DNA of 26,152 nt from the IMG/VR virus record IMGVR_UViG_3300039106_000325, positions 1 to 26,152 of that record; one strand, 5' to 3'. Under the pieces are notes generated by a model. That model was not told the origin of the DNA. It was given only the letters and a program-made list of their open reading frames with translations, and made no database searches. The stretch comes from a virus. This document shows, piece after piece, positions 13,888-26,104 of this stretch. Position 1 is the stretch's first letter, and every line of letters begins with the position of its first letter. The translations under genes and the position numbers were made by a program.

Positions 13888-14410
13888 AGAAGAGTTAGTT
13901 AAGCATCTTGACGTTATGAATGACGTTGTTGGAGAATATCTAAAAGGTAGTGATCCAACACAAATCTCAAAAGAATTAGCAATTCCAAGAGTTCGTGTAG
14001 TTGCATACATTGATGAATGGAAAGAAAAAACTTCTAACAATACCGCTATCCGTGCCCGTGCTAAGGATGCACTTGCTGGTGCTGATGCACACTACAGCAA
14101 ACTTATTTTAAAATCTTACGAGGTTATTGATGAAGCCTCTATGACCAATAACCTTAGTGCTAAGACTTCGGCAATTAAGCTTGTTATGGATATTGAATCT
14201 AAAAGAATTGATATGCTTCAAAAGGCTGGCCTTCTTGAAAATAAAGAGTTAGCCGAAGAGATGGTTGAGATTGAAAAACGACAAGAGGTTCTTGTTGGGA
14301 TTCTTCGTGATATTGCATCTGAGCATCCAGAAGTCAGAGATATTATTATGAAACGGCTTTCTGCTATTGCAAAAGAAGGCGAGGTAATTACAGTTGTCCA
14401 CGATGTTTAA
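13877..14410 (+). CDS. Probable terminase small subunit
   Basis: The 177-residue, mainly helical protein has an N-terminal HTH-like segment (about 26-50, DPTQISKELAIPRVRVVAYI) followed by long amphipathic helices (KLVMDIESKRIDMLQKAG), the usual layout of TerS proteins. It lies directly before and overlaps the large terminase gene. Such proteins recognise the packaging site and form a ring that feeds DNA to TerL. No single diagnostic motif exists for the family, so position carries much of the weight. It overlaps the DUF3310 gene by 11 bases at its start. Confidence 0.65.
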   Translation: MSTEEELVKHLDVMNDVVGEYLKGSDPTQISKELAIPRVRVVAYIDEWKEKTSNNTAIRARAKDALAGADAHYSKLILKSYEVIDEASMTNNLSAKTSAIKLVMDIESKRIDMLQKAGLLENKELAEEMVEIEKRQEVLVGILRDIASEHPEVRDIIMKRLSAIAKEGEVITVVHDV

Positions 14411-16181
14411 TGATTTTATTGAAGTATTAAAAAACAATAACTTTGAGGAAATGCCTGTAGATGCAAAAACTTTTGTTGAGGGAGAGCACTATCTTGCACA
14501 GCCACCACTTTCGGATATTCAATACGACATTGTTGAAGCAATGAGTCAAATTTATAGAATTGAAGATGTTATAGATATTCTTGGTCCTGAAAAAGGAAGC
14601 CAATACTATAAAAAATATACAAAGAATGAAATAATTTTGCAACTTGGCAAGGGATCTGGAAAAGATTTTACATCAACAGTAGCCTGTGCATACATAGTAT
14701 ACAAGCTTCTATGTCTTAAAGATCCAGCAAGATACTTTGGAAAACCTTCTGGTGATGCTATTGACATTATTAACGTTGCTATTAACGCTCAGCAGGCTAA
14801 GAACGTTTTCTTTAAAGGTTTTAAAACTAAAATTGAAAAGTCTGAATGGTTTGCAGGAAAATATAATGCAAAAGCCGAAAGCATTGAGTTTGATAAAGGT
14901 ATTACAGTTTATTCTGGTCACTCAGAGCGTGAATCACATGAGGGACTTAACCTTATCCTTGCAGTACTTGATGAGATCTCTGGCTTTGCAAATGAAGTCG
15001 GTACGGGCAATGACCAAGGAAAGACTGCAGATAATATTTATAAAGCCTTCCGTGCTTCCGTAGACTCTCGTTTCCCTGACCTTGGTAAGGTTGCATTGCT
15101 TTCATTTCCAAGATACCCTGGAGACTTTATTTCACAAAAATATGAAGCAGCCATTATGGAAAAAGAAACAATTACATACAACCATAGGTTTGTAATGAAT
15201 CCAGATTTTCCAGACGACCTAGAAGGAAATCATTTAGATATTTCCTGGGATGAAGATCAAATTACATCATACAAGTACCCTGGAGTATTTGCATTAAAGA
15301 GACCTACCTGGGTAGTCAATCCTACTCGCAAGATAGATGACTTTAGGCTTGCATTCTTTACAGATATGGGTGATGCAATGCAGCGTTTTGCTTGTGTACC
15401 AACTTTTGCTTCTGATGCATTTTTTAAACAAAAAGATAAACTTGAAAAATGTATGACGCTTAGAAACCCAATTGATAATAATAAAAGGTTTGACGAATCA
15501 TTTAAGCCAGATCCAGACAAGGTATACTTTGTTCACGCTGACCTTGCACAAAAACACGATAAGTGTGCTGTTGCAATTGCCCATGTTGATAAGTGGGTCA
15601 ATCTTCAGGTTGTTAAAGATTATGAACAGGTTGCGCCTATCATTATTGTAGATGCCGTCGTATGGTGGGAACCAAAGGTTGAAGGTCCAGTAAACCTTTC
15701 AGATGTAAAGCAATGGATTCAAAACCTTCGTAGACAAGGTTTTAATATTGGTATGGTTACATTTGACCGTTGGCAATCATTTGATATTCAACAAGAACTT
15801 CAAGCCGTAGGAATCAGAACTGACACTGTTTCTGTTGGTAAGAAGCACTATGAAGACCTTGCAATGATGATCTATGAAGAGCGTGTTGCTATGCCCTATA
15901 TACCTTTATTGCTTGACGAAATGTCTGAACTTAAAATTATTAATGACAAGAAGGTAGACCACCCACGCAAAAAATCTAAAGATTTGTCAGATGCCGTAAC
16001 GGGTGCGGTATTTGGTGCATTATCCCATACTCCAAAAAATCCTAATATAGAGATAGATATACACACTTGGTCTACTTCTGCATCTCAATTTGCAAAGGAA
16101 CAGAGGAATATGGTAGAATTAGAACCTAAGCCAATGACGGACGATGTTCGTGATTACTTAGATAGATTAAACCTATTATAA
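14394..16181 (+). CDS. terL: Terminase large subunit
   Basis: The 595-residue DNA-packaging motor has both enzyme parts. In the ATPase, Walker A is at 85-91 (GKGSGKD) and Walker B at 187-194 (LILAVLDE), ending in the catalytic D193/E194. The C-terminal RNase H-type nuclease has D383 (VHADLAQ), D458 (TFDRWQS) and D533 (LSDAVTG). It pumps DNA into the prohead and cuts concatemers. The TTG at 14394 is preferred over ATG 14403 because GAGG (14381-14384) is 9 bases upstream of the TTG. It overlaps the small subunit by 17 bases. No portal or capsid gene follows, which is unusual. Confidence 0.93.
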   Translation: MSTMFNDFIEVLKNNNFEEMPVDAKTFVEGEHYLAQPPLSDIQYDIVEAMSQIYRIEDVIDILGPEKGSQYYKKYTKNEIILQLGKGSGKDFTSTVACAYIVYKLLCLKDPARYFGKPSGDAIDIINVAINAQQAKNVFFKGFKTKIEKSEWFAGKYNAKAESIEFDKGITVYSGHSERESHEGLNLILAVLDEISGFANEVGTGNDQGKTADNIYKAFRASVDSRFPDLGKVALLSFPRYPGDFISQKYEAAIMEKETITYNHRFVMNPDFPDDLEGNHLDISWDEDQITSYKYPGVFALKRPTWVVNPTRKIDDFRLAFFTDMGDAMQRFACVPTFASDAFFKQKDKLEKCMTLRNPIDNNKRFDESFKPDPDKVYFVHADLAQKHDKCAVAIAHVDKWVNLQVVKDYEQVAPIIIVDAVVWWEPKVEGPVNLSDVKQWIQNLRRQGFNIGMVTFDRWQSFDIQQELQAVGIRTDTVSVGKKHYEDLAMMIYEERVAMPYIPLLLDEMSELKIINDKKVDHPRKKSKDLSDAVTGAVFGALSHTPKNPNIEIDIHTWSTSASQFAKEQRNMVELEPKPMTDDVRDYLDRLNLL

Positions 16182-16185
16182 GAAT

Positions 16186-16203
16186 TCTGATTAAATAATC
16201 AGA
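16186..16203. repeat. Short inverted repeat between terL and the secreted-protein gene
   Basis: TCTGATTA and TAATCAGA form a perfect 8-base inverted repeat with a 2-base centre. It is AT-rich and not followed by a T run, so it is a poor intrinsic terminator. An operator or a weak RNA hairpin is equally possible. It lies 22 bases before the ATG of the S-layer-like gene. Confidence 0.5.
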
Positions 16204-16224
16204 TATACACAAACAAGGAGAAAG

Positions 16225-17931
16225 ATGAATTCATTTAAGAAAATTGCTTTAGGACTTGCTGCAGCTATGTCCTTTGGCGTACTCTCAGCACTTCCGACAA
16301 GTGCTGCTGTAAATGCACCAACTCTAACCATTGATTCAGCAACAGACGCTGTTACCTCTGGTGAGTCTGCAACAGCAGTAGTTACACTGTCATTTATTTC
16401 AGAAACATCAGCAGATACTGCAACAGTAATCTCTGCTATGTTTTCACAACCAACGGGATCAGCAAAGTCTGCAACCTTATCACTTCTAGAAACATCAACA
16501 GCCTCAGTAATAATTGCAGGTAATAATGTTTCAGCAAATGTTAACTCAACAGTTAATACTCCAACATATGTAACAGCAAAGTTTAAGGTTACACTAGATG
16601 CACCAAGCGTTGCAGGTACATATGAGGCTAAGATTTTAACAACTAGCCCAGTAAATGGACCAACAGTTTCTTGGACAGTTACAGTTAAGGCAGCAGATCT
16701 AACACCTGCAGCAGCAACTACAACATCAGTTCTTAATAAGGGTGAAGTTACAACAGCAACAGCAGACGATGCTGTATATGCTCCAAAGGCTACAGCAACA
16801 GATGCAGCAGCGGTAATCGTTGTTACACCTAAGAATGCAGCAGGCGGATCAGCAACTGAGTCAATTCTTGCAACAGTCTCAGGTTCTGGACTTATCGGCT
16901 ATGGCACAAATGCTACAACAATGTCTGCAACAGGTCGTGCATTGGTAATTCCTACAGGAAACTACATTGGCGTATTTGCTGACGGTACAGCAGGAGTATC
17001 AACAATTACTCTTACAACACTTACAGGTACAGTCCTTGCAACAGAGAAAGTAACATTCTACGGAGACATTGCTTCAGTTGTAGCAACTCCAATTAAGTCT
17101 GTTATCGCAGTAGGTGCAAACACATCAACAGTTAAGGCAGTTGCATATGATGCACTAGGCGTTGTCGTTGGCGCAGGAACACTTAATGCTTATTCAAGCG
17201 ATATAGCAGTTGTGTCTGATTCAGGTACAGCAGCAACAATCGTAAATGGGGAAGCAGTATTTACCCTTACAGGTGTTAAGGCTGGCGGAGTAGCAGTTAC
17301 AGTTAAGTCTGGAACAATCTCATCTGCACCAGTTTCTACTCGTGTGGAAGCAGCAGTCGCAACTGTCAAGTTGTCATTTGATAAGGCAGTTTACTTGCCA
17401 GGAGAAGCAGCAACAATTACTGTACAGGCTCTTGATGCAGCAGGTCTTCCAGTATCTGGTAAGACTCACGCAAACCTTTTTGCAGTAGGAGGAATCACTT
17501 CTAACTACGCATTTGGTGGATCATCAGATGTTCTTACAGCAACATCAATTACAACAGATACATCAACAGCAAAGTCATACAAGGTTTTCATGCCTCTGGT
17601 TGAAAATGATGTAACAATTTCAGCAACTGGTGGATCATCTCTTCCTCTTGCTGGACAAGTTGTAGTAACAGCAACAGCAGAAGTTTCTAATGCAGCAAAC
17701 AAAGCTGCAGTCAAGGCTTCTGAGGATGCAGCAAAGGCAGCACAGGCTGCTACAGATGCAGCAATTGAAGCTTCAAAGGCAGCAGAAGCAGCAACTGTAC
17801 AAGCACAAGCAGCAGTAGATGCAGTCGCAGCGCTTTCTACACAAGTTGCTACATTAATTGCTTCACTTAGAAAGCAAATCACAGCGCTAACTTCTTTAGT
17901 CGTAAAGATTCAGAAGAAGGTCCGTGCTTAA
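16225..17931 (+). CDS. Secreted S-layer-like protein with Ig-like domains and Ala-rich coiled-coil tail
   Basis: The 568-residue protein starts behind a strong AAGGAG (16215-16220). A clear Sec signal peptide (KK, then IALGLAAAMSFGVLSAL, cleavage likely after A27 in PTSA) is followed by Thr/Ala/Val-rich beta domains resembling bacterial Ig-like repeats (e.g. LSFDKAVYLPGEAATITVQA). The last 80 residues are Ala-rich, then TLIASLRKQITALTSLVVKI and KKVRA. I associate this architecture with abundant surface proteins of freshwater acI actinobacteria (from memory). It has no phage-structural motif. It probably coats or crosses the host envelope. Host-derived acquisition is likely, and a role in surface masking or superinfection exclusion is inference. 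Confidence 0.75.
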   Translation: MNSFKKIALGLAAAMSFGVLSALPTSAAVNAPTLTIDSATDAVTSGESATAVVTLSFISETSADTATVISAMFSQPTGSAKSATLSLLETSTASVIIAGNNVSANVNSTVNTPTYVTAKFKVTLDAPSVAGTYEAKILTTSPVNGPTVSWTVTVKAADLTPAAATTTSVLNKGEVTTATADDAVYAPKATATDAAAVIVVTPKNAAGGSATESILATVSGSGLIGYGTNATTMSATGRALVIPTGNYIGVFADGTAGVSTITLTTLTGTVLATEKVTFYGDIASVVATPIKSVIAVGANTSTVKAVAYDALGVVVGAGTLNAYSSDIAVVSDSGTAATIVNGEAVFTLTGVKAGGVAVTVKSGTISSAPVSTRVEAAVATVKLSFDKAVYLPGEAATITVQALDAAGLPVSGKTHANLFAVGGITSNYAFGGSSDVLTATSITTDTSTAKSYKVFMPLVENDVTISATGGSSLPLAGQVVVTATAEVSNAANKAAVKASEDAAKAAQAATDAAIEASKAAEAATVQAQAAVDAVAALSTQVATLIASLRKQITALTSLVVKIQKKVRA

Positions 17932-17947
17932 TTAATCCAACAATTAG

Positions 17948-17975
17948 GGGAGTCAGGAAACTGGCTCCCTTTTTT
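17948..17975 (+). terminator. Intrinsic terminator after the S-layer-like gene
   Basis: A 9-base-pair stem, GGGAGTCAG with CTGGCTCCC (one G-T pair), closes a GAAA tetraloop and is followed by six T residues (17970-17975). It lies 17 bases after the stop codon. It is the only textbook rho-independent terminator in the window. Confidence 0.92.
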
Positions 17976-17986
17976 GTTACATAAAA

Positions 17987-17995
17987 TGATATAAT
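17987..17995 (+). promoter_or_regulatory. Extended -10 promoter for the coiled-coil exoprotein
   Basis: TGATATAAT is an extended -10, just after the terminator. The expected +1 is near 18002. No -35 resembling TTGACA lies 17 bases upstream. It restarts transcription for the gene that follows. Confidence 0.6.
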
Positions 17996-18059: not shown

Positions 18060-20507
18060 TTGGTGGGACTATTAGTGGTTTTGTGGCTTATCCTAGCCCC
18101 CGTTGACCATGCCCGTGCAACAGAAGAAGTAACATCTCAAGTCTCTTCATCAGACACCGCAACAGCAACAATTTCTGCAGGATCAACAGTAACAATTGAA
18201 AGCGCAACAGCCATAATTGAGGTAGCACAGGCTACAATAACTCAGGCTGAAACTGCAACGGCAGTCATAGAAACCCAAGCAACAGCCATTACAAGCCCTA
18301 CAGAGACTATCACAGCCACTATCACACAGGCTCAGACCTCTATTACTCAGGCTCAGACAGTAGTAGATAGTGCTACTGTGGCTGTTAATAATGTTATTTC
18401 TACTCAAAATTCCCTGGCCCAAGCGGTAGAAACACAGACCGCAAGATCACAAACGGTAGTATCAGAATCAGCAACAGTCCTATCTTTGACAGATAGTATG
18501 ACAGTTCTTAATGGACAAATAGATAGCCAAACAGTGCTTGTTACAGCCGACAGTGCTACAGTACTTGCTCGCCAAGGAGATGTTACGCTAGTTCAAAACC
18601 AGATTAGGCTAGAAAATGCTGGAAATCCACAGACTACAAATCTTCCAAAAGACGATGATCAAGCATTTATAATGACATTGCCATATGCCATTCGTCATGG
18701 AGATCAAACATATACAGATGTTTATATTGCTACAAATGGCTTAATATCCTTTGGTGTTCCTCAAGGTTGGGGTGGAAATGCTCCAGCAGTTTATATTAAC
18801 TTCCGTGACTGGTGGAATGTTGATTCAGATACCTATGTTAGATATTCAACAACAATTAACTCATTATTGGTTGAGTGGAATGTTGTTCCTTTTGGAACTA
18901 GATCAAACAACACATCAAAGACACAATTAACATTTGATGCTGATGTTAACCCTATTACTGGAGAATGGATTGCAGATATTACATCAACTGGTATGCCAGG
19001 AAATGATACAAATAATCCAGTTCAAGTTAATAAGATTGTGAATAATCAACTTCAGTCATCAACTGTTCCAATAACAGTTCAACAAAATTCTGGTAATACA
19101 TTTAATTTTACGGCTAACATAACTAATCCTAACTATACTGCTTATGTCCCTGCCCCACCAAACAGTAATCTTGCAGCACAACTTGTAACTGCACAATCTA
19201 ATTTATCTTCTGCCCAATTAGCATTAACAGCAGCACAGGTAGTCCTTGCTGGATTAATGTCAAATAAAACTTCCCTGCAATCAGAAATTTCTGCAGCCCA
19301 ACAAGACTTGCAGACTGCACAAAATAATTTAAATACTGCAAACCAACAAGTTATTTATTGGCAGGGACAGGTGAATACTGCAAAGTCACAACTAGATTCA
19401 GCAGTAAACCTTGTAACGCAAGCAGTTAGTGCAATGGGATCAGCCGTAAATGCTGCTGACTCAATTGTAGATGCAACCCTTGCTGCAGAAGAATCAGTTA
19501 GGCAAGCAGCAGCCAGAGCAGAAGCAGAAAGACAAGCAGCCATAGCAGCAGAAAATGCTAGAGCAGCAGAGGCTGCAGCAGCCCAAGCAGCAGCAGAAGC
19601 AAAGGCTGCAGAGGAAGCGGCTGCACAAGCAGAAGCGGATAGAATTGCTGCAGAAGAAGAAGCAGCACAGGCACAAGCAGATGCTGAAAAAGCAGAGGCT
19701 GATCGTATAGCAGCAGAAGAAGAAGCAGCTAAAGCACAAGCAGAAGCAGAAGCAAAGGCGGAAGAAGAAGCAATTGCAGAAGCAGAAAGATTAGAGGCTG
19801 AAGCAGAAGCAGCAAGACAAGCGGAATTAGATGCAATTGCGGAGGCAGAGGCTAAGGAAGCGGAAGCAGAGGCTGCAAGACAAGCAGAAGAAGATGCTAA
19901 AGCAGAAGCGGAAGCAAAAGAAAAAGAATTAGAAGCAGCAAAGGCTGAAGAAGAAAAAGCACAGGCAGAAGAAGCAGCAGCAAAAGCAGAAGAAGAAGAA
20001 TTAAAAGAAATACTTGAAGAGGCAAAAGACGGTAAAGAATTAACTGAAGAACAGAAAGAAGTTCTTGTTGAGGCGCTACTTGAAGATCTCAAGCCTGGAG
20101 AATCAATATCAGCAGCACAGGTACAGGCATCTGGAGTTTCATATGCAGATCTTCCACCTGAAACACCAATTAAGGTTCGTACAGATGAAAATGGAAATGC
20201 ATTAGTTATTACAGCAGAAGTTGCTGCAAATATTGAATTAGTTCAAGATGCAGGAGCTTTATTAACAGCAGCATTTACTGATCCAGGAGCAGCATTAGCG
20301 GCACTAGGAAGTATTGGTGCAGACATGACTGAAGCAGAAAGAGAAGAAGCAACAGATATGGTTGTGGCAACAGTTGTCGCAGCAGGTGCTGCAATTAATG
20401 CTGCAGCAGTTGCTGCAGGCGGAGGCGGCAGCACAGGTGGCGGAGGAAGTTCTGGTGGAGGCTCAGGAAGCAATTCACCAGGTTCAAGAGGAGGAAGAAG
20501 ATGGTAA
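18060..20507 (+). CDS. Large secreted protein with beta domain, TolA-like coiled coil and Gly-rich tail
   Basis: From TTG 18060 the product is 815 residues. No ATG fits. The frame stays open upstream to 18027, and reading from an ATT at 18033 adds KSFLLKSG, giving a better Sec signal peptide (positive start, LVGLLVVLWLILA core, cleavage after HARA). Order: Thr/Ala/Gln-rich helices (about 25-190); a beta domain (about 195-365) with TNGLISFG resembling nidogen-type sandwiches; an Ala/Glu/Lys-rich coiled coil like TolA (about 475-650); a mixed domain; and a Gly/Ser tail ending RGGRRW. It is likely exported or envelope-spanning. A role in spanning the envelope at lysis or in adhesion is inference. 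It overlaps the next gene by 7 bases. Confidence 0.7.
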   Translation: MVGLLVVLWLILAPVDHARATEEVTSQVSSSDTATATISAGSTVTIESATAIIEVAQATITQAETATAVIETQATAITSPTETITATITQAQTSITQAQTVVDSATVAVNNVISTQNSLAQAVETQTARSQTVVSESATVLSLTDSMTVLNGQIDSQTVLVTADSATVLARQGDVTLVQNQIRLENAGNPQTTNLPKDDDQAFIMTLPYAIRHGDQTYTDVYIATNGLISFGVPQGWGGNAPAVYINFRDWWNVDSDTYVRYSTTINSLLVEWNVVPFGTRSNNTSKTQLTFDADVNPITGEWIADITSTGMPGNDTNNPVQVNKIVNNQLQSSTVPITVQQNSGNTFNFTANITNPNYTAYVPAPPNSNLAAQLVTAQSNLSSAQLALTAAQVVLAGLMSNKTSLQSEISAAQQDLQTAQNNLNTANQQVIYWQGQVNTAKSQLDSAVNLVTQAVSAMGSAVNAADSIVDATLAAEESVRQAAARAEAERQAAIAAENARAAEAAAAQAAAEAKAAEEAAAQAEADRIAAEEEAAQAQADAEKAEADRIAAEEEAAKAQAEAEAKAEEEAIAEAERLEAEAEAARQAELDAIAEAEAKEAEAEAARQAEEDAKAEAEAKEKELEAAKAEEEKAQAEEAAAKAEEEELKEILEEAKDGKELTEEQKEVLVEALLEDLKPGESISAAQVQASGVSYADLPPETPIKVRTDENGNALVITAEVAANIELVQDAGALLTAAFTDPGAALAALGSIGADMTEAEREEATDMVVATVVAAGAAINAAAVAAGGGGSTGGGGSSGGGSGSNSPGSRGGRRW
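19490..20000 (+). repeat. Low-complexity GCA/GAA-rich coding repeat
   Basis: About 500 bases of imperfect GCAGAA/GCAGCA-type codon repeats encode the Ala/Glu coiled coil of the exoprotein. They produce long artefactual Ala/Ser-rich open frames on the minus strand. Copies are degenerate, with no fixed unit length. Confidence 0.75.
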
Positions 20508-21062: not shown

Positions 21063-21593
21063 ATGACTTGTATTGCAGTAGTTCGTGATGACGTAAATAA
21101 TAAAATCTATATGGCTGGAGATCGTGGTGCATCTGATGATGGCACTATACTTGCTCTTGATGCCCCAAAAGTTTGGAAGATTGGTCCCTATCTCATTGGT
21201 TATGCGGGATCAATGGATGGCGAAAGAATTAGATACAACTTTCATCCAACTGCTCCAAATATTAAAGACACAGATAAGTTTATGCAGACTAAGTTTATTA
21301 AAGAACTTAAAGAATTTTATAATGATTTTTGGGTAGACACTTCTAAAGATGGCGATCTTGGTTTAATTATTTGTGTTCGTGGTCAAATCTATGAGCATAG
21401 TTCTGCCGATATGTCTTTATCTAAATACACACTTCCATATCTTGCAATGGGTTCTGGTGCAGAGTATGCCTACGGAGTTTTATATGCAACTGATAAGCAA
21501 AAAAATGCAAGGAATAGAGTTGCACAAGCAGTTAATGCTGCAATTAAATTTAATCCTTCATGTATGGGACCAGTTGACATAGTTAGCCTTTAG
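21063..21593 (+). CDS. Proteasome-like Ntn hydrolase (HslV/20S beta-type)
   Basis: The 176-residue protein reads MTCIAVVRD at its start, so removal of Met exposes Thr2, the N-terminal nucleophile of proteasome-type peptidases. D20 (MAGDRG) and K36 (APKVWKI) keep the Asp-Lys spacing of 16 seen for D17 and K33 of beta subunits. GYAGSMDGERI (about 46-56) fits the Gly-47 loop, and AMGSGAEYAYG fits the later conserved Gly-Ser-Gly. HslV is close in length (about 175). Cys3 as nucleophile is less likely. It may be a self-assembling phage peptidase acting on host or phage proteins (inference). It stands alone behind its own strong promoter. Confidence 0.75.
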   Translation: MTCIAVVRDDVNNKIYMAGDRGASDDGTILALDAPKVWKIGPYLIGYAGSMDGERIRYNFHPTAPNIKDTDKFMQTKFIKELKEFYNDFWVDTSKDGDLGLIICVRGQIYEHSSADMSLSKYTLPYLAMGSGAEYAYGVLYATDKQKNARNRVAQAVNAAIKFNPSCMGPVDIVSL

Positions 21594-21602
21594 GGATATA
21601 AT
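21574..21602 (+). promoter_or_regulatory. Perfect consensus promoter for a leaderless gene
   Basis: TTGACA (21574-21579), exactly 17 bases, then TATAAT (21597-21602) is a full sigma70 consensus. It lies across the end of the Ntn hydrolase gene. The ATG at 21609 begins 6 bases after the -10, where +1 is expected. Confidence 0.85.
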
Positions 21603-21608
21603 TATAAT

Positions 21609-21800
21609 ATGCACAACGAAAACGAAGTTGAAGATGCTGAATTTATAATTTGGCTAGAAAATGGAATTGAGCGGGGATGGATTTCAGACCCGTATTGCAA
21701 TACTCATGATGGTGGATATGAATATATGAGTGAAGAAGAAATTAAAGAGTGGGATGACGGTGGCGACCCATGTTGTCATGTAGTCCGTCTAATAGTATAA
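21609..21800 (+). CDS. Small acidic conserved phage protein, leaderless
   Basis: The 63-residue acidic protein has patterns I associate with a small conserved phage family: EFIIWLENGIERGWISDPYC, THDGGYEYMSEEE, and EWDDGGDPC near the end. The repeated Cys, His and Asp residues might bind a metal. It has no ribosome-binding site; the ATG coincides with the expected +1 of the consensus promoter at 21574-21602, so translation is probably leaderless. Function is unknown. The subtilase gene follows 8 bases later with its own ribosome-binding site. Confidence 0.7.
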   Translation: MHNENEVEDAEFIIWLENGIERGWISDPYCNTHDGGYEYMSEEEIKEWDDGGDPCCHVVRLIV

Positions 21801-21808
21801 GGAGAAAA

Positions 21809-22615
21809 ATGAAAAAAGTAGCAGTGGGATTCGTAGCAGTAATATTTTCAACAATGTTCTTAATGCCTTCCGAAGCAGCAACTCCAAAGGCTTTAGTAAT
21901 CATTGATTCGTACTTTGATTCAAAAGTATACAATGCAGATGTGGTTTGTATTACACTTCAAAATACATCATGTACAGATGTTGTGACAGTAACAAGTACA
22001 TCACTTTCAAGTGAAATTAATCATGGAAATGCCATGGCTGAGGTTGCCAAGAAGCAAAATCAATCACTATCAATTATTTTATTGAGAGCAACAACTCCAT
22101 CATCAAAAACTGTTAATCCAGTAAATGCTGGAAACTTTATTGATGCTCTAAACTGGGTAAATGCAAACTCTTCAAAGGTTGGCGCAGTTTCAGTATCAAG
22201 ATATTTTAATGGAACCAAACCGTGTTCTCCAGCAGCCGTAAACACTGCTGGCGTGTATGGTGGAGTTGCCAAGGCTGATAAGACTATTCGTACCTTAATT
22301 TCTATGCTAAATTCAAAGGGGATTCCAGTATTTGTTTCAACTGGTAACAAGATGGGTACAAAGATTGACTATCCTGCATGCATTCCAGATGTAGTTTCTG
22401 TCAGTACTGGCGGAAAAAATGCACAAGGAACTATCGTTAGTGTTAATGCATTTGATAATGATACTGACTATTTTGCTTCATCTGAACTCAATAATTATGA
22501 TTCAAGTGTTTTTGGGTTAATCCCACAAACAACTTCATCGGCTACCGCAGCAGTTGCTGCTCAGTGGCTAACAGTTGGAAATCTTTCAGACAAGGTTGTT
22601 CTAGTTAAAAAGTAG
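21809..22615 (+). CDS. Secreted subtilisin-like serine protease (S8 family)
   Basis: From ATG 21809 (AAGGAG at 21799-21804) the product is 268 residues; an upstream in-frame TTG at 21770 is not needed. A signal peptide (MKK, then VAVGFVAVIFSTMFLM, cleavage near SEA) precedes a compact subtilase domain. It has D33 (VIIDSYFD), H72 (EINHGNAMAEV), oxyanion N180 (VSTGN) and S243 in TTSSATAAVAA, which replaces the usual GTSMATPHVA. All catalytic positions are therefore present, although the Gly and Pro around Ser are lost. No pro-domain is seen. It would act outside the cytoplasm, perhaps on surface proteins (inference). Four Cys (C47, C55, C139, C191) could form disulfides. Confidence 0.78.
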   Translation: MKKVAVGFVAVIFSTMFLMPSEAATPKALVIIDSYFDSKVYNADVVCITLQNTSCTDVVTVTSTSLSSEINHGNAMAEVAKKQNQSLSIILLRATTPSSKTVNPVNAGNFIDALNWVNANSSKVGAVSVSRYFNGTKPCSPAAVNTAGVYGGVAKADKTIRTLISMLNSKGIPVFVSTGNKMGTKIDYPACIPDVVSVSTGGKNAQGTIVSVNAFDNDTDYFASSELNNYDSSVFGLIPQTTSSATAAVAAQWLTVGNLSDKVVLVKK

Positions 22616-22622
22616 TAGGTTT

Positions 22623-22695
22623 TGGTCTGTAGCTCAGTTGGTAGAGCGTCGCACTGTTAATGCGAATGTCGCAGGATCGTGACCTGCCAGACCAG
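22623..22695 (+). tRNA. tRNA-Asn (anticodon GTT)
   Basis: The cloverleaf folds well: 7-bp acceptor (TGGTCTG with CAGACCA), D-arm GCTC/GAGC, anticodon stem TCGCA/TGCGA with loop CTGTTAA (anticodon GTT), and T-stem GCAGG/CCTGC. The discriminator is G95, as expected for tRNA-Asn. The T-loop ATCGTGA departs from the usual TTC start. CCA is not encoded. Confidence 0.9.
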
Positions 22696-22699
22696 CAAT

Positions 22700-22773
22700 G
22701 CGGATATTGCATAGTGATAGTGCGTAACCTTGCCAAGGTTAACGTGTGGGTTTGATTCCCGCTATCCGCTCCA
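22700..22773 (+). tRNA. tRNA-Gly (anticodon GCC) with encoded CCA
   Basis: 7-bp acceptor (GCGGATA with TATCCGC), D-arm GCAT/GTGC, anticodon stem TAACC/GGTTA with loop TTGCCAA (anticodon GCC), T-stem GTGGG/CCCGC with one wobble. The discriminator is T (22770), usual for tRNA-Gly, followed by encoded CCA (22771-22773). The T-loop TTTGATT is slightly atypical. It is 4 bases from the tRNA-Asn gene. Confidence 0.9.
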
Positions 22774-22778
22774 GAATA

Positions 22779-22787
22779 TGATATAAT
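22779..22787 (+). promoter_or_regulatory. Extended -10 promoter for hsp20
   Basis: TGATATAAT, the same 9 bases as at 17987-17995, begins 5 bases after the tRNA-Gly CCA. The expected +1 near 22794 starts a GTAC...GTAC inverted repeat (22794-22797 with 22809-22812) in the 49-base leader. No -35 box is clear. Confidence 0.6.
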
Positions 22788-22842
22788 AAATATGTACTGC
22801 CTACGGGGGTACACTAACTTATTCGCTTGAAAGGGGAATAAA

Positions 22843-23259
22843 ATGGTAACACAGTTCGCAATGGATCTATTCAATGATCCTTTTTTTATTGGTTTTAATA
22901 GAGAATTAAGCCGTCTAAATACCGCACATAAAGTAAATTCGCAATCATATCCTCCTTATGATCTTCTTAAGCTAGATGAAGATACATACAGAATTACTCT
23001 TGCTATTGCAGGATTTACAAAGGAAGATATTGATCTATCAGTAGATAGTGGAACTCTTGTAATTAAGGGTGAAATCACAGAAGTAATAGATGCTGAGGTA
23101 GTCCACAAAGGTATCGCTGGTCGTAAATTTGTACGATCATTTGCTCTTGGAGAATACATGGAAGTAACTGGTGCCGAAATGAAGGATGGTATGCTACATA
23201 TTAGTATAGATCGTATTATTCCTGAAGATAAAAAGCCTAAACAGATTGTAATTAACTAG
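22843..23259 (+). CDS. hsp20: Small heat-shock protein (Hsp20/alpha-crystallin)
   Basis: The 138-residue protein has the alpha-crystallin domain (about 38-132) with strands YRITLAIAGFTKEDI, DLSVDSGTLVIKGE and a later MKDGMLHISIDRI. The C-terminal IVI (QIVIN) is the IxI motif that locks dimers into larger oligomers. The N-terminal FNDPFFIGFNREL matches the IbpA-type start. It is an ATP-independent holdase that could protect phage or host proteins during infection; T4-like cyanophages also carry Hsp20. It has its own promoter and an AAAGGGG ribosome-binding site. Its 3' end contains the next promoter. Confidence 0.92.
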   Translation: MVTQFAMDLFNDPFFIGFNRELSRLNTAHKVNSQSYPPYDLLKLDEDTYRITLAIAGFTKEDIDLSVDSGTLVIKGEITEVIDAEVVHKGIAGRKFVRSFALGEYMEVTGAEMKDGMLHISIDRIIPEDKKPKQIVIN

Positions 23260-24648: not shown

Positions 24649-25515
24649 ATGCTAAAGTTCCATCACATGTGGAGAGGAAAACCTTTGAGCGCAAATGCTC
24701 TTAGAGATCTTTCCATTGATTTAGAGCAGGCTGGATATGATTCAGTTCTTCTTACCTTTCATTCTGAGTCTCCAGACTATCTTATAAAGTCTGCTGCTGC
24801 ACTTATCCCAGGAAATAAGCTAAAATATATGATTGCACTAAGGCCATATCATATTAGTCCTCAGTATTGCGCTATGATTGTAGAAGGATTTAATCAAATA
24901 GATGAGGGTAGATTAGTTTTTAATTGGATTGCTGGAGATTCGCACAATAGGGTAGACGAAAATCTCCAGATGGACGTTTATGGTAATACAGAAAATCTTG
25001 ATAGTATTATTAAAAGAACAACCTTTTTACGCAATTTTATTGAACAGTATAACAAAATGCCAGTTGTTACAAAGCATCCACCAATGGTTTTTAGTGGATA
25101 CTCGGAGTACACGCTTCAAACTGCAACTATGTTTAATGGAACATCCTTATGCATGATAGATGATTATCAAAACAATATTGAAAGATTTTCAAATATAAAA
25201 AAAAGAATGATTTGTGTAGCTCCTATTATTTTAAAATCTTCAGATGAGGTAGAGGCATATAAAAAATTATTGCCTAAGTTTGGATCAAGATTTTTAAATA
25301 TGTGCATAGTTGGAGAAAAAGATTACGTAAAAGATCAACTTGTGAAACTAGAGAATGATGGAATAACAGATATTCTTGTTAATACACATAGACCAGAATT
25401 CTTAGGAAGACCAAGCGAGTTGAGTGAAAAAAACAACATACTTATAAATGAATTAGTTAAAGAAATTAACACAGAATATGGAAAAGAAAGTGAACTTTCA
25501 CTGGATCAACAATAA
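24649..25515 (+). CDS. Luciferase-like (flavin-dependent) monooxygenase, full-length copy
   Basis: The 288-residue protein resembles bacterial luciferase-like/SsuD-type TIM-barrel enzymes. LSIDLEQAGYDSVLLTF is the first barrel unit. MIALRPYHISPQYCAMIVEG and DEGRLVFNWIAG match the SsuD region (RP...SP...A, then GR...N...G). A late segment, MCIVGEKDYVKDQLVKLEN, matches the end of the barrel (VGxxxxV...L). Known relatives use FMNH2 and O2 to oxidise alkanesulfonates or other small molecules; the substrate here is unknown. It starts directly after the DUF7455 stop. It is unusual cargo for a phage and has a partial paralogue immediately downstream. Confidence 0.8.
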   Translation: MLKFHHMWRGKPLSANALRDLSIDLEQAGYDSVLLTFHSESPDYLIKSAAALIPGNKLKYMIALRPYHISPQYCAMIVEGFNQIDEGRLVFNWIAGDSHNRVDENLQMDVYGNTENLDSIIKRTTFLRNFIEQYNKMPVVTKHPPMVFSGYSEYTLQTATMFNGTSLCMIDDYQNNIERFSNIKKRMICVAPIILKSSDEVEAYKKLLPKFGSRFLNMCIVGEKDYVKDQLVKLENDGITDILVNTHRPEFLGRPSELSEKNNILINELVKEINTEYGKESELSLDQQ

Positions 25516-26104
25516 AGAATTGCTGGTTGATGAAATTAGTGAATTATCAACAACTTTGGATAATTATGGATTCGAATCTTTATTGCTAACTTTTACAGAA
25601 CGTGAAGCAGACTATTGGATAAAAGCAGCAAGGGCACTTTCTATAGGGCAAAAAATTAAGTATATGATAGCATTAAGACCATATGCAATTAATCCAACAT
25701 ATGCACTTATGATGGCAACGGCTTTTGAGCAAATTGATAAAGATAGGCTAATGTTAAATATAATTGCTGGAATAAATGATTTTGAAGCAGATCGCTTTAA
25801 TGTAAACCTAAATGTTGAAGAAAGAAAACAGGCATGTTCTTTATTTTTAAAAGAAATGATTGCCGCCAATGAGAGTAATTGGGCTATTAATATAGAATAC
25901 AAGCTTAATAAATTTCCAGATATAGTTATTAGTGGTTCTTCTCCAGAAATGATTGAATGCACAAATAAATATGGAGATATTAGCTTAACAACATTAAGTA
26001 ATTATATGATATACTTAAAAGATAAAGATATTTTCGCTCCTGTTGTAAACTCTACACCAGTAAACCCCTCTTATAGCGATCCTTTTAGCGATACGACAAG
26101 GTAA
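25490..26104 (+). CDS. Luciferase-like monooxygenase paralogue, C-terminally short
   Basis: The product is 204 residues from GTG 25490, chosen because NFHWIN then aligns with the start (KFHHMW) of the upstream paralogue and GGA lies 7 bases before it; ATG 25478 would add four residues. LDNYGFESLLLTF, YMIALRPYAINPTYALMMAT and KDRLMLNIIAG align with matching segments of the first copy. The final part of the barrel is missing: the protein ends in a Pro/Ser-rich stretch (TPVNPSYSDPFSDTTR). It overlaps the first gene by 26 bases, in another frame. It may be a non-catalytic partner subunit, as in two-chain luciferases, or a decaying duplicate (inference). Confidence 0.72.
   Translation: MNFHWINNKELLVDEISELSTTLDNYGFESLLLTFTEREADYWIKAARALSIGQKIKYMIALRPYAINPTYALMMATAFEQIDKDRLMLNIIAGINDFEADRFNVNLNVEERKQACSLFLKEMIAANESNWAINIEYKLNKFPDIVISGSSPEMIECTNKYGDISLTTLSNYMIYLKDKDIFAPVVNSTPVNPSYSDPFSDTTR

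Follow-up and report, generated by a model that had tools for sequence, protein, structure and literature searches.

A putative phage version of the hypervariable acI surface protein occupies an exchangeable slot beside the terminase gene

The window analysed here comprises the whole of an IMG/VR record, 26,152 bases, and since relatives of this DNA reach ~112 kb it is probably a fragment. The gene of interest encodes a protein of 568 residues, designated P0001, and lies between the gene for the large terminase subunit and that for a further secreted-type protein, designated P2. The features of the locus are:

14394..16181, + strand: large terminase subunit (TerL), the fixed left neighbour of the slot, from PHROG terminase matches and synteny
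16215..16220, + strand: Shine-Dalgarno sequence AAGGAG, 4 nt before the ATG, read directly; AGGAG is kept in relatives
16225..17931, + strand: coding sequence of the phage surface-layer-like protein P0001 (568 aa), with an ATG start, relatives encoded on 330 viral stretches and host homologues
16225..16305, + strand: signal peptide, aa 1-27, probable cleavage between TSA and AV, layout as in host MSTKTTFKRIALVAVAALGLGVLSVAPSSA
16312..17685, + strand: ectodomain of about four Ig-like β-sandwich domains, aa 30-487, from AlphaFold, structural matches and a weak Big_1 match
17692..17928, + strand: Ala-rich helical tail, aa 490-568, ending LVVKIQKKVRA, an exchangeable module common to phages and hosts
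17946..17977, + strand: intrinsic terminator, an 11-bp stem (stem region 17946-17971) plus a T run; relatives' terminators have different stems
17987..17995, + strand: TGATATAAT, candidate extended -10 element of the next gene, recurring in most aligned relatives but a consensus match only
18060..20507, + strand: P2, secreted-type and coiled-coil-rich, the usual right neighbour, from sequence and synteny

The P0001 signal peptide, MNSFKKIALGLAAAMSFGVLSALPTSA with A following the cleavage point, is of the Sec type as read from the sequence, without SignalP, and its layout is held in common with the surface proteins of the host. It is followed by an ectodomain rich in Thr, Ala and Val and then by the Ala-rich tail with its KIQKKVRA end. 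An AlphaFold model, generated from a 31-row alignment of phage and host sequences, has a mean pLDDT of 85 and contains about four β-sandwich domains between residues 30 and 487, with the tail predicted as a single continuous helix of 78 residues (490-567); the pTM of 0.58 leaves the relative placement of the domains uncertain. The signal peptide and Ig-like domains reported in an initial annotation of this DNA are thus both recovered, the latter with only a weak, sub-threshold Pfam Big_1 match (E 5e-4). The same annotation described the tail as an Ala-rich coiled coil, of which the Ala-rich helix and its KIQKKVRA terminus stand, while oligomerisation has not been shown and a coiled coil is no more than plausible from the model.

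Among the best structural matches to the P0001 model are the Ig-like surface proteins FdeC, SbsC, intimin, invasin and Sap, Big-domain adhesins among them, with SbsC domains 4-5 superimposing at a Z score of 11.7 and an rmsd of 2.8 over 92 residues; such matches of a predicted model are informative as to fold, not function. The S-layer proteins SbsC and Sap are chains of Ig-like domains at a Gram-positive surface, as is proposed for P0001, but no sequence homology to either was seen. No SLH-type anchor domain was matched in P0001 using Pfam, although this domain is common rather than universal in S-layer proteins. With no two-dimensional lattice shown, the status of P0001 as a strict S-layer protein is inferred only, and it is not filed as such. 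Searches of PHROGs and NCBIfam with P0001 returned no family, and a tblastn search of annotated phage records gave no match. The ectodomain is under purifying selection, with dN/dS of ~0.25 as against 0.10 for TerL.

The gene carries the signals expected by the initial annotation, which had pointed to a strong ribosome-binding site and a dedicated terminator as suggestive of high expression. The terminator stem has a folding energy of -24.5 kcal/mol (z -6.1) and is the longest among seven candidates. Matches to sigma-70-like promoters did not exceed the level expected by chance; the P0001 gene is therefore not assigned a promoter here. A small inverted repeat, CTGATT..AATCAG (16186-16204), lies directly 5′ of the ribosome-binding site, and three relatives (L003, L012 and L015) have different stems there. 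Codon use was then scored against acI ribosomal-protein operons, a reference that is approximate because all open reading frames below 420 aa in three operon regions were taken by length. On this scale the P0001 gene has a codon adaptation index (CAI) of 0.723, the highest in the window and 8.8 z units above expectation from the phage's own codon use; two host copies of the surface gene score 0.726 and 0.665. The surface gene outscores TerL in all 66 phages compared and ranks as the most host-codon-adapted gene in 38 of 39 loci, with other proteins found at the same position scoring 0.67-0.73. Codon use therefore lends independent support to high expression of P0001, for which there are no expression data.

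In most loci encoding P0001 relatives the order TerS-TerL-P0001 gene-P2-holin-HslV-lysin is retained. In four loci (L021, L026, L075 and L079) the surface gene is instead found away from the TerL slot, close to a distant region with an HslV-like gene or P2, which indicates that the cassette moves. Elsewhere in the window are HSP20, HslV-like and mycosin-like genes (21063-23259) and two adjacent luciferase-like monooxygenase genes of low codon adaptation (24649-26104). P2 itself consists of coiled coils, a β-domain and a Gly-rich end, GGRRW, and its last 60 residues match proteins of two host genomes.

This neighbourhood brings to mind a role in egress, in which an ill-fitting phage subunit, once built into the surface layer of the host, would weaken that layer and so help lysis. 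Genes for a holin-like protein and a CHAP endolysin are close by, and the adjoining P2 is likewise of the secreted type. The P0001 gene is, however, separated from the downstream genes by its own terminator and occupies another genomic place in the four loci just described, and an aid to egress is considered improbable.

In order to guard against bait bias, the slot was also scanned using TerL instead of P0001 as the key. Among the best 80 contigs, eight stop too early and 72 are readable after TerL; since the viral scans list the best 80 loci, these phage counts are samples. A signal-peptide protein was present in the slot in all 72 readable contigs, 49 being P0001 homologues and 23 having other ectodomains. 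Each of the 23 begins MNS(F/L)K followed by a signal peptide, and these occupants include proteins of 327-398 aa, most with the tail termed B, and a family of ~538 aa. Every occupant is a signal-peptide protein, while the ectodomains vary, which makes the slot a cassette for surface proteins whose ectodomains can be exchanged. One slot protein (L493:3529-5214) has a different C-terminal motif, CVKGKLTKKVTAVAPICPTGYKKK (TCVKGKLTKKVTAVAPICPTGYKKK), and a similar end was seen in a protein on a host contig.

Homologues of P0001 were sought in bacterial genome contigs. A first alignment gave nothing, only two patterns drawn from it having been used, but an alignment of the tail found 44 host loci, largely in freshwater actinobacterial MAGs, single-cell genomes and complete acI chromosomes. 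The host proteins start MST(K/T)T.FKR and end with the same tail as the phage proteins; the last 80 residues, which the initial annotation had singled out for a search of acI genomes, are thus held in common. The resemblance is not confined to the tail, as the P0001 ectodomain alone matches host proteins with E values down to 8e-60, the best matches being 35-39% identical. Homologues were present in all eight genomes picked from the tail-found loci, as expected from the way in which they were chosen, and in an order-wide profile search 72 of 296 Nanopelagicales (acI) genomes gave a match. Many genomes of the order therefore lack a detectable homologue, either because the gene is not universal or because the ectodomain has diverged beyond detection. 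From these similarities the host of the 26,152-base contig is inferred to be acI. Two host proteins of ~2,300 aa (L167 and L168) have only the first domain in common with the phage protein. Four loci with acI-type genes (L085, L093, L100 and L117) come from records titled Bifidobacterium breve or Streptomyces griseus; such species titles on several MAG records look wrong and suggest mislabelling.

The host gene lies between genes for an ECF sigma factor and a Wzy_C protein (O-antigen ligase family), as in Planktophila lacus MMS-21-148 (L095/L128). Its product has the same signal peptide, Ig-like ectodomain and Ala-rich helical tail as P0001, and its codon adaptation is likewise high. The phage gene, by contrast, is found after TerL and has no ECF sigma/Wzy_C context, making it a homologue and not the host locus gene, and the phage ectodomains fall mostly in a clade of their own. 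A viral scan with the single P. lacus protein returned nothing, so that this allele showed no near counterpart among phages. Comparison of ten host loci having all three genes revealed marked variability: one pair (L138/L141) is 99% identical in the sigma protein, 41% in the ectodomain and 89% in the tail, and another (L128/L179) is 98%, 33% and 96% identical, respectively. A near-identical sigma gene beside a divergent ectodomain indicates that the ectodomain is replaced while the locus stays in place; a role of phages in driving such replacement is an inference.

It could still be argued that P0001 is an Ig-like decoration or adhesion protein of the virion, given that Ig-like domains are frequent in phage virions and that a Foldseek search with the P0001 model matched many viral Ig-like proteins. 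Set against this are the signal peptide, the homology to host chromosomal proteins and the map of a 112-kb relative (G569), in which the P0001 homologue (27.8-29.5 kb) lies outside the virion morphogenesis module. The portal, head protease, tape measure and tail genes of this relative are located at ~44-76 kb, some 15-47 kb away and behind the replication genes, and its fibre-like genes are at 84-90 kb. Map position alone cannot rule out a virion protein; added to the signal peptide and the homology to hosts, however, it renders a virion role unlikely, and very little weight is given to such a role here. The initial annotation had likewise judged that the protein resembled a host surface protein and not a virion protein, and had named homologues found only in virions, or an absence of resemblance to host surface proteins, as findings that would refute it; neither was encountered. 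Its main claim, read here as a phage-encoded copy of a host surface protein, is borne out well beyond mere resemblance.

Phylogenetic analysis, which the initial annotation had proposed for dating the transfer, indicates an old main capture and at least one separate capture. The main phage clade forms a single branch among the host sequences (SH-aLRT 100). A single capture, as the first set gathered with P0001 as bait had implied, is contradicted by one protein, L393, encoded directly after TerL, which groups with a host protein (L154) with support of 100/100 and is 43-45% identical to the host but 29% identical to P0001. Monophyly of the phage proteins including L393 was rejected (AU p 3e-25), a value that is optimistic because the group was tested after L393 had been noticed. 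The 538-aa slot family also has host counterparts, in four genomes (G136, G074, G092 and G061); in G136 and G092 these lie at the same ECF sigma/Wzy_C locus, and the tails in G136, G074 and G092 are close (NADVLKxIVxLIASINKQI). For the short slot family the host match is weaker (G148, 37% over 167 aa), so that three captures from hosts have good sequence support, with a fourth possible. The host-to-phage direction of transfer is assumed, the trees being unrooted.

The tails of phage proteins resemble particular tail types of hosts. Over the last 45 residues, phage tails are 91% (L044 to host L142), 87% (L029 to L138) and 84% (L079 to L152) identical to host tails, and the P0001 tail is 73% identical to that of a host (L085). 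Mapped onto a tree built from 127 phage ectodomains, tail class shows ~13 changes, the minimum for six classes being five; this number is approximate, as the classes were defined from patterns once the sequences had been seen. No clear host counterpart of tail B (KWNxxNP) was found in the 296 genomes of the order or in 297 genomes sampled evenly across the class. The sole match, a protein in G044, looks unrelated and was rejected as its source; the end of the G148 protein is loosely similar to tail B.

A host-type tail, high codon adaptation and a position beside packaging and lysis genes would all be compatible with maintenance of the envelope, whereby synthesis of the host surface protein is halted and a phage substitute keeps the cell intact until lysis. 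Such a substitute should, however, match the host ectodomain, whereas most phage ectodomains belong to one clade while those of hosts vary strongly, and in certain slot occupants the ectodomain is both short and of another kind (whole proteins of 327-398 aa). We infer that a constant foreign surface on a host-matched anchor is not needed for lattice repair, and envelope maintenance is regarded as unlikely. A comparatively constant ectodomain joined to a host-type tail does suit a phage that shows a single surface of its own choosing, anchored on hosts of various kinds.

Together, these data lead us to propose, with a probability of roughly 55%, that in P0001 the phage has its own form of the hypervariable acI (Nanopelagicales) surface protein, that P0001 recoats the infected cell and that superinfection is thereby limited. 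The portion of this proposal read from the sequences comprises full-length host homology, the signal peptide and tail layout, ribosomal-protein-like codons, the TerL slot, repeated capture and tail exchange. The remaining steps are inferred. P0001 would be made in large amounts during infection and, in the absence of localisation data, is presumed to be exported by Sec; its C-terminal helix may hold it on the cell by fitting the same anchor as the host protein, an anchor that has not been shown; and the phage ectodomain would then replace or dilute that of the host. By a further inference, other phages would meet an altered surface, with less superinfection and less wasteful adsorption of progeny. 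Superinfection exclusion is one of several conceivable purposes of recoating and, without functional data, speculative; it is favoured because the phage ectodomain stays mostly within one clade while the anchor follows the host. Against the proposal as a whole, the host surface protein has not been established as a phage receptor, and tail B lacks a clear host counterpart in the 296 genomes of the order. A surface-type protein that is secreted and has the codon use of highly expressed genes could also be shed as a decoy binding foreign phages, or form an altered coat that shields cells from grazers, and the evidence does not separate these possibilities from recoating. Nevertheless, a tail matched to host type suggests retention on the cell and not release, and shed decoys could, we infer, also bind the phage's own progeny; a decoy or shield is considered a distant prospect.

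Comparison with known systems places recoating by P0001 in context. Phage T5 encodes Llp, a small lipoprotein for superinfection exclusion that blocks one receptor at the cell surface; it resembles P0001 as a phage product acting against phages at the surface, but it is not a copy of a host surface protein. To our knowledge, the domains of CwpV, from Clostridioides difficile, are unrelated to those of P0001. CwpV is a bacterial surface protein giving phage resistance and is host-encoded and phase-variable, unlike P0001 (PMC4737114). A phage-encoded parallel with the same proposed purpose is gene_23 of phage Melnitz (OM43 host), a putative S-layer-type protein for which superinfection protection was proposed (PMC9004378). 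This is a single annotation in a phage of a proteobacterial host, and a host ortholog, tail matching and slot exchange are not described in the portion of that source available (PMC9004378). Literature searches found no phage-borne S-layer protein in acI phages and no equivalent phage surface cassette, the Melnitz paper being the one that proposes this purpose for another phage S-layer protein.

Overall, the sequence comparisons extend the initial reading, in that P0001 is one among the alleles of a surface cassette present throughout these phages, with a hypervariable locus of the host as its counterpart, its function being untested. More tentatively, and short of an even chance, this large group of lake phages may universally carry an exchangeable surface-coat cassette, each with its own allele on a host-type anchor, with which the infected cell is repainted in order to control infection; if so, host and phage would draw on one common pool of surface alleles. 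The acI bacteria are among the most abundant microbes of fresh water, and their interactions with phages are hardly known. If correct, the present analysis would name a likely main variable surface protein of acI, with an ectodomain that is swapped between near relatives and of which phages carry and re-anchor alleles of their own. The drivers of acI surface microdiversity would then be directly testable, and cultivated acI hosts and phages exist (LanE-43, PMC10202952). Tail type may, in addition, serve as a host-group marker for uncultured phages.
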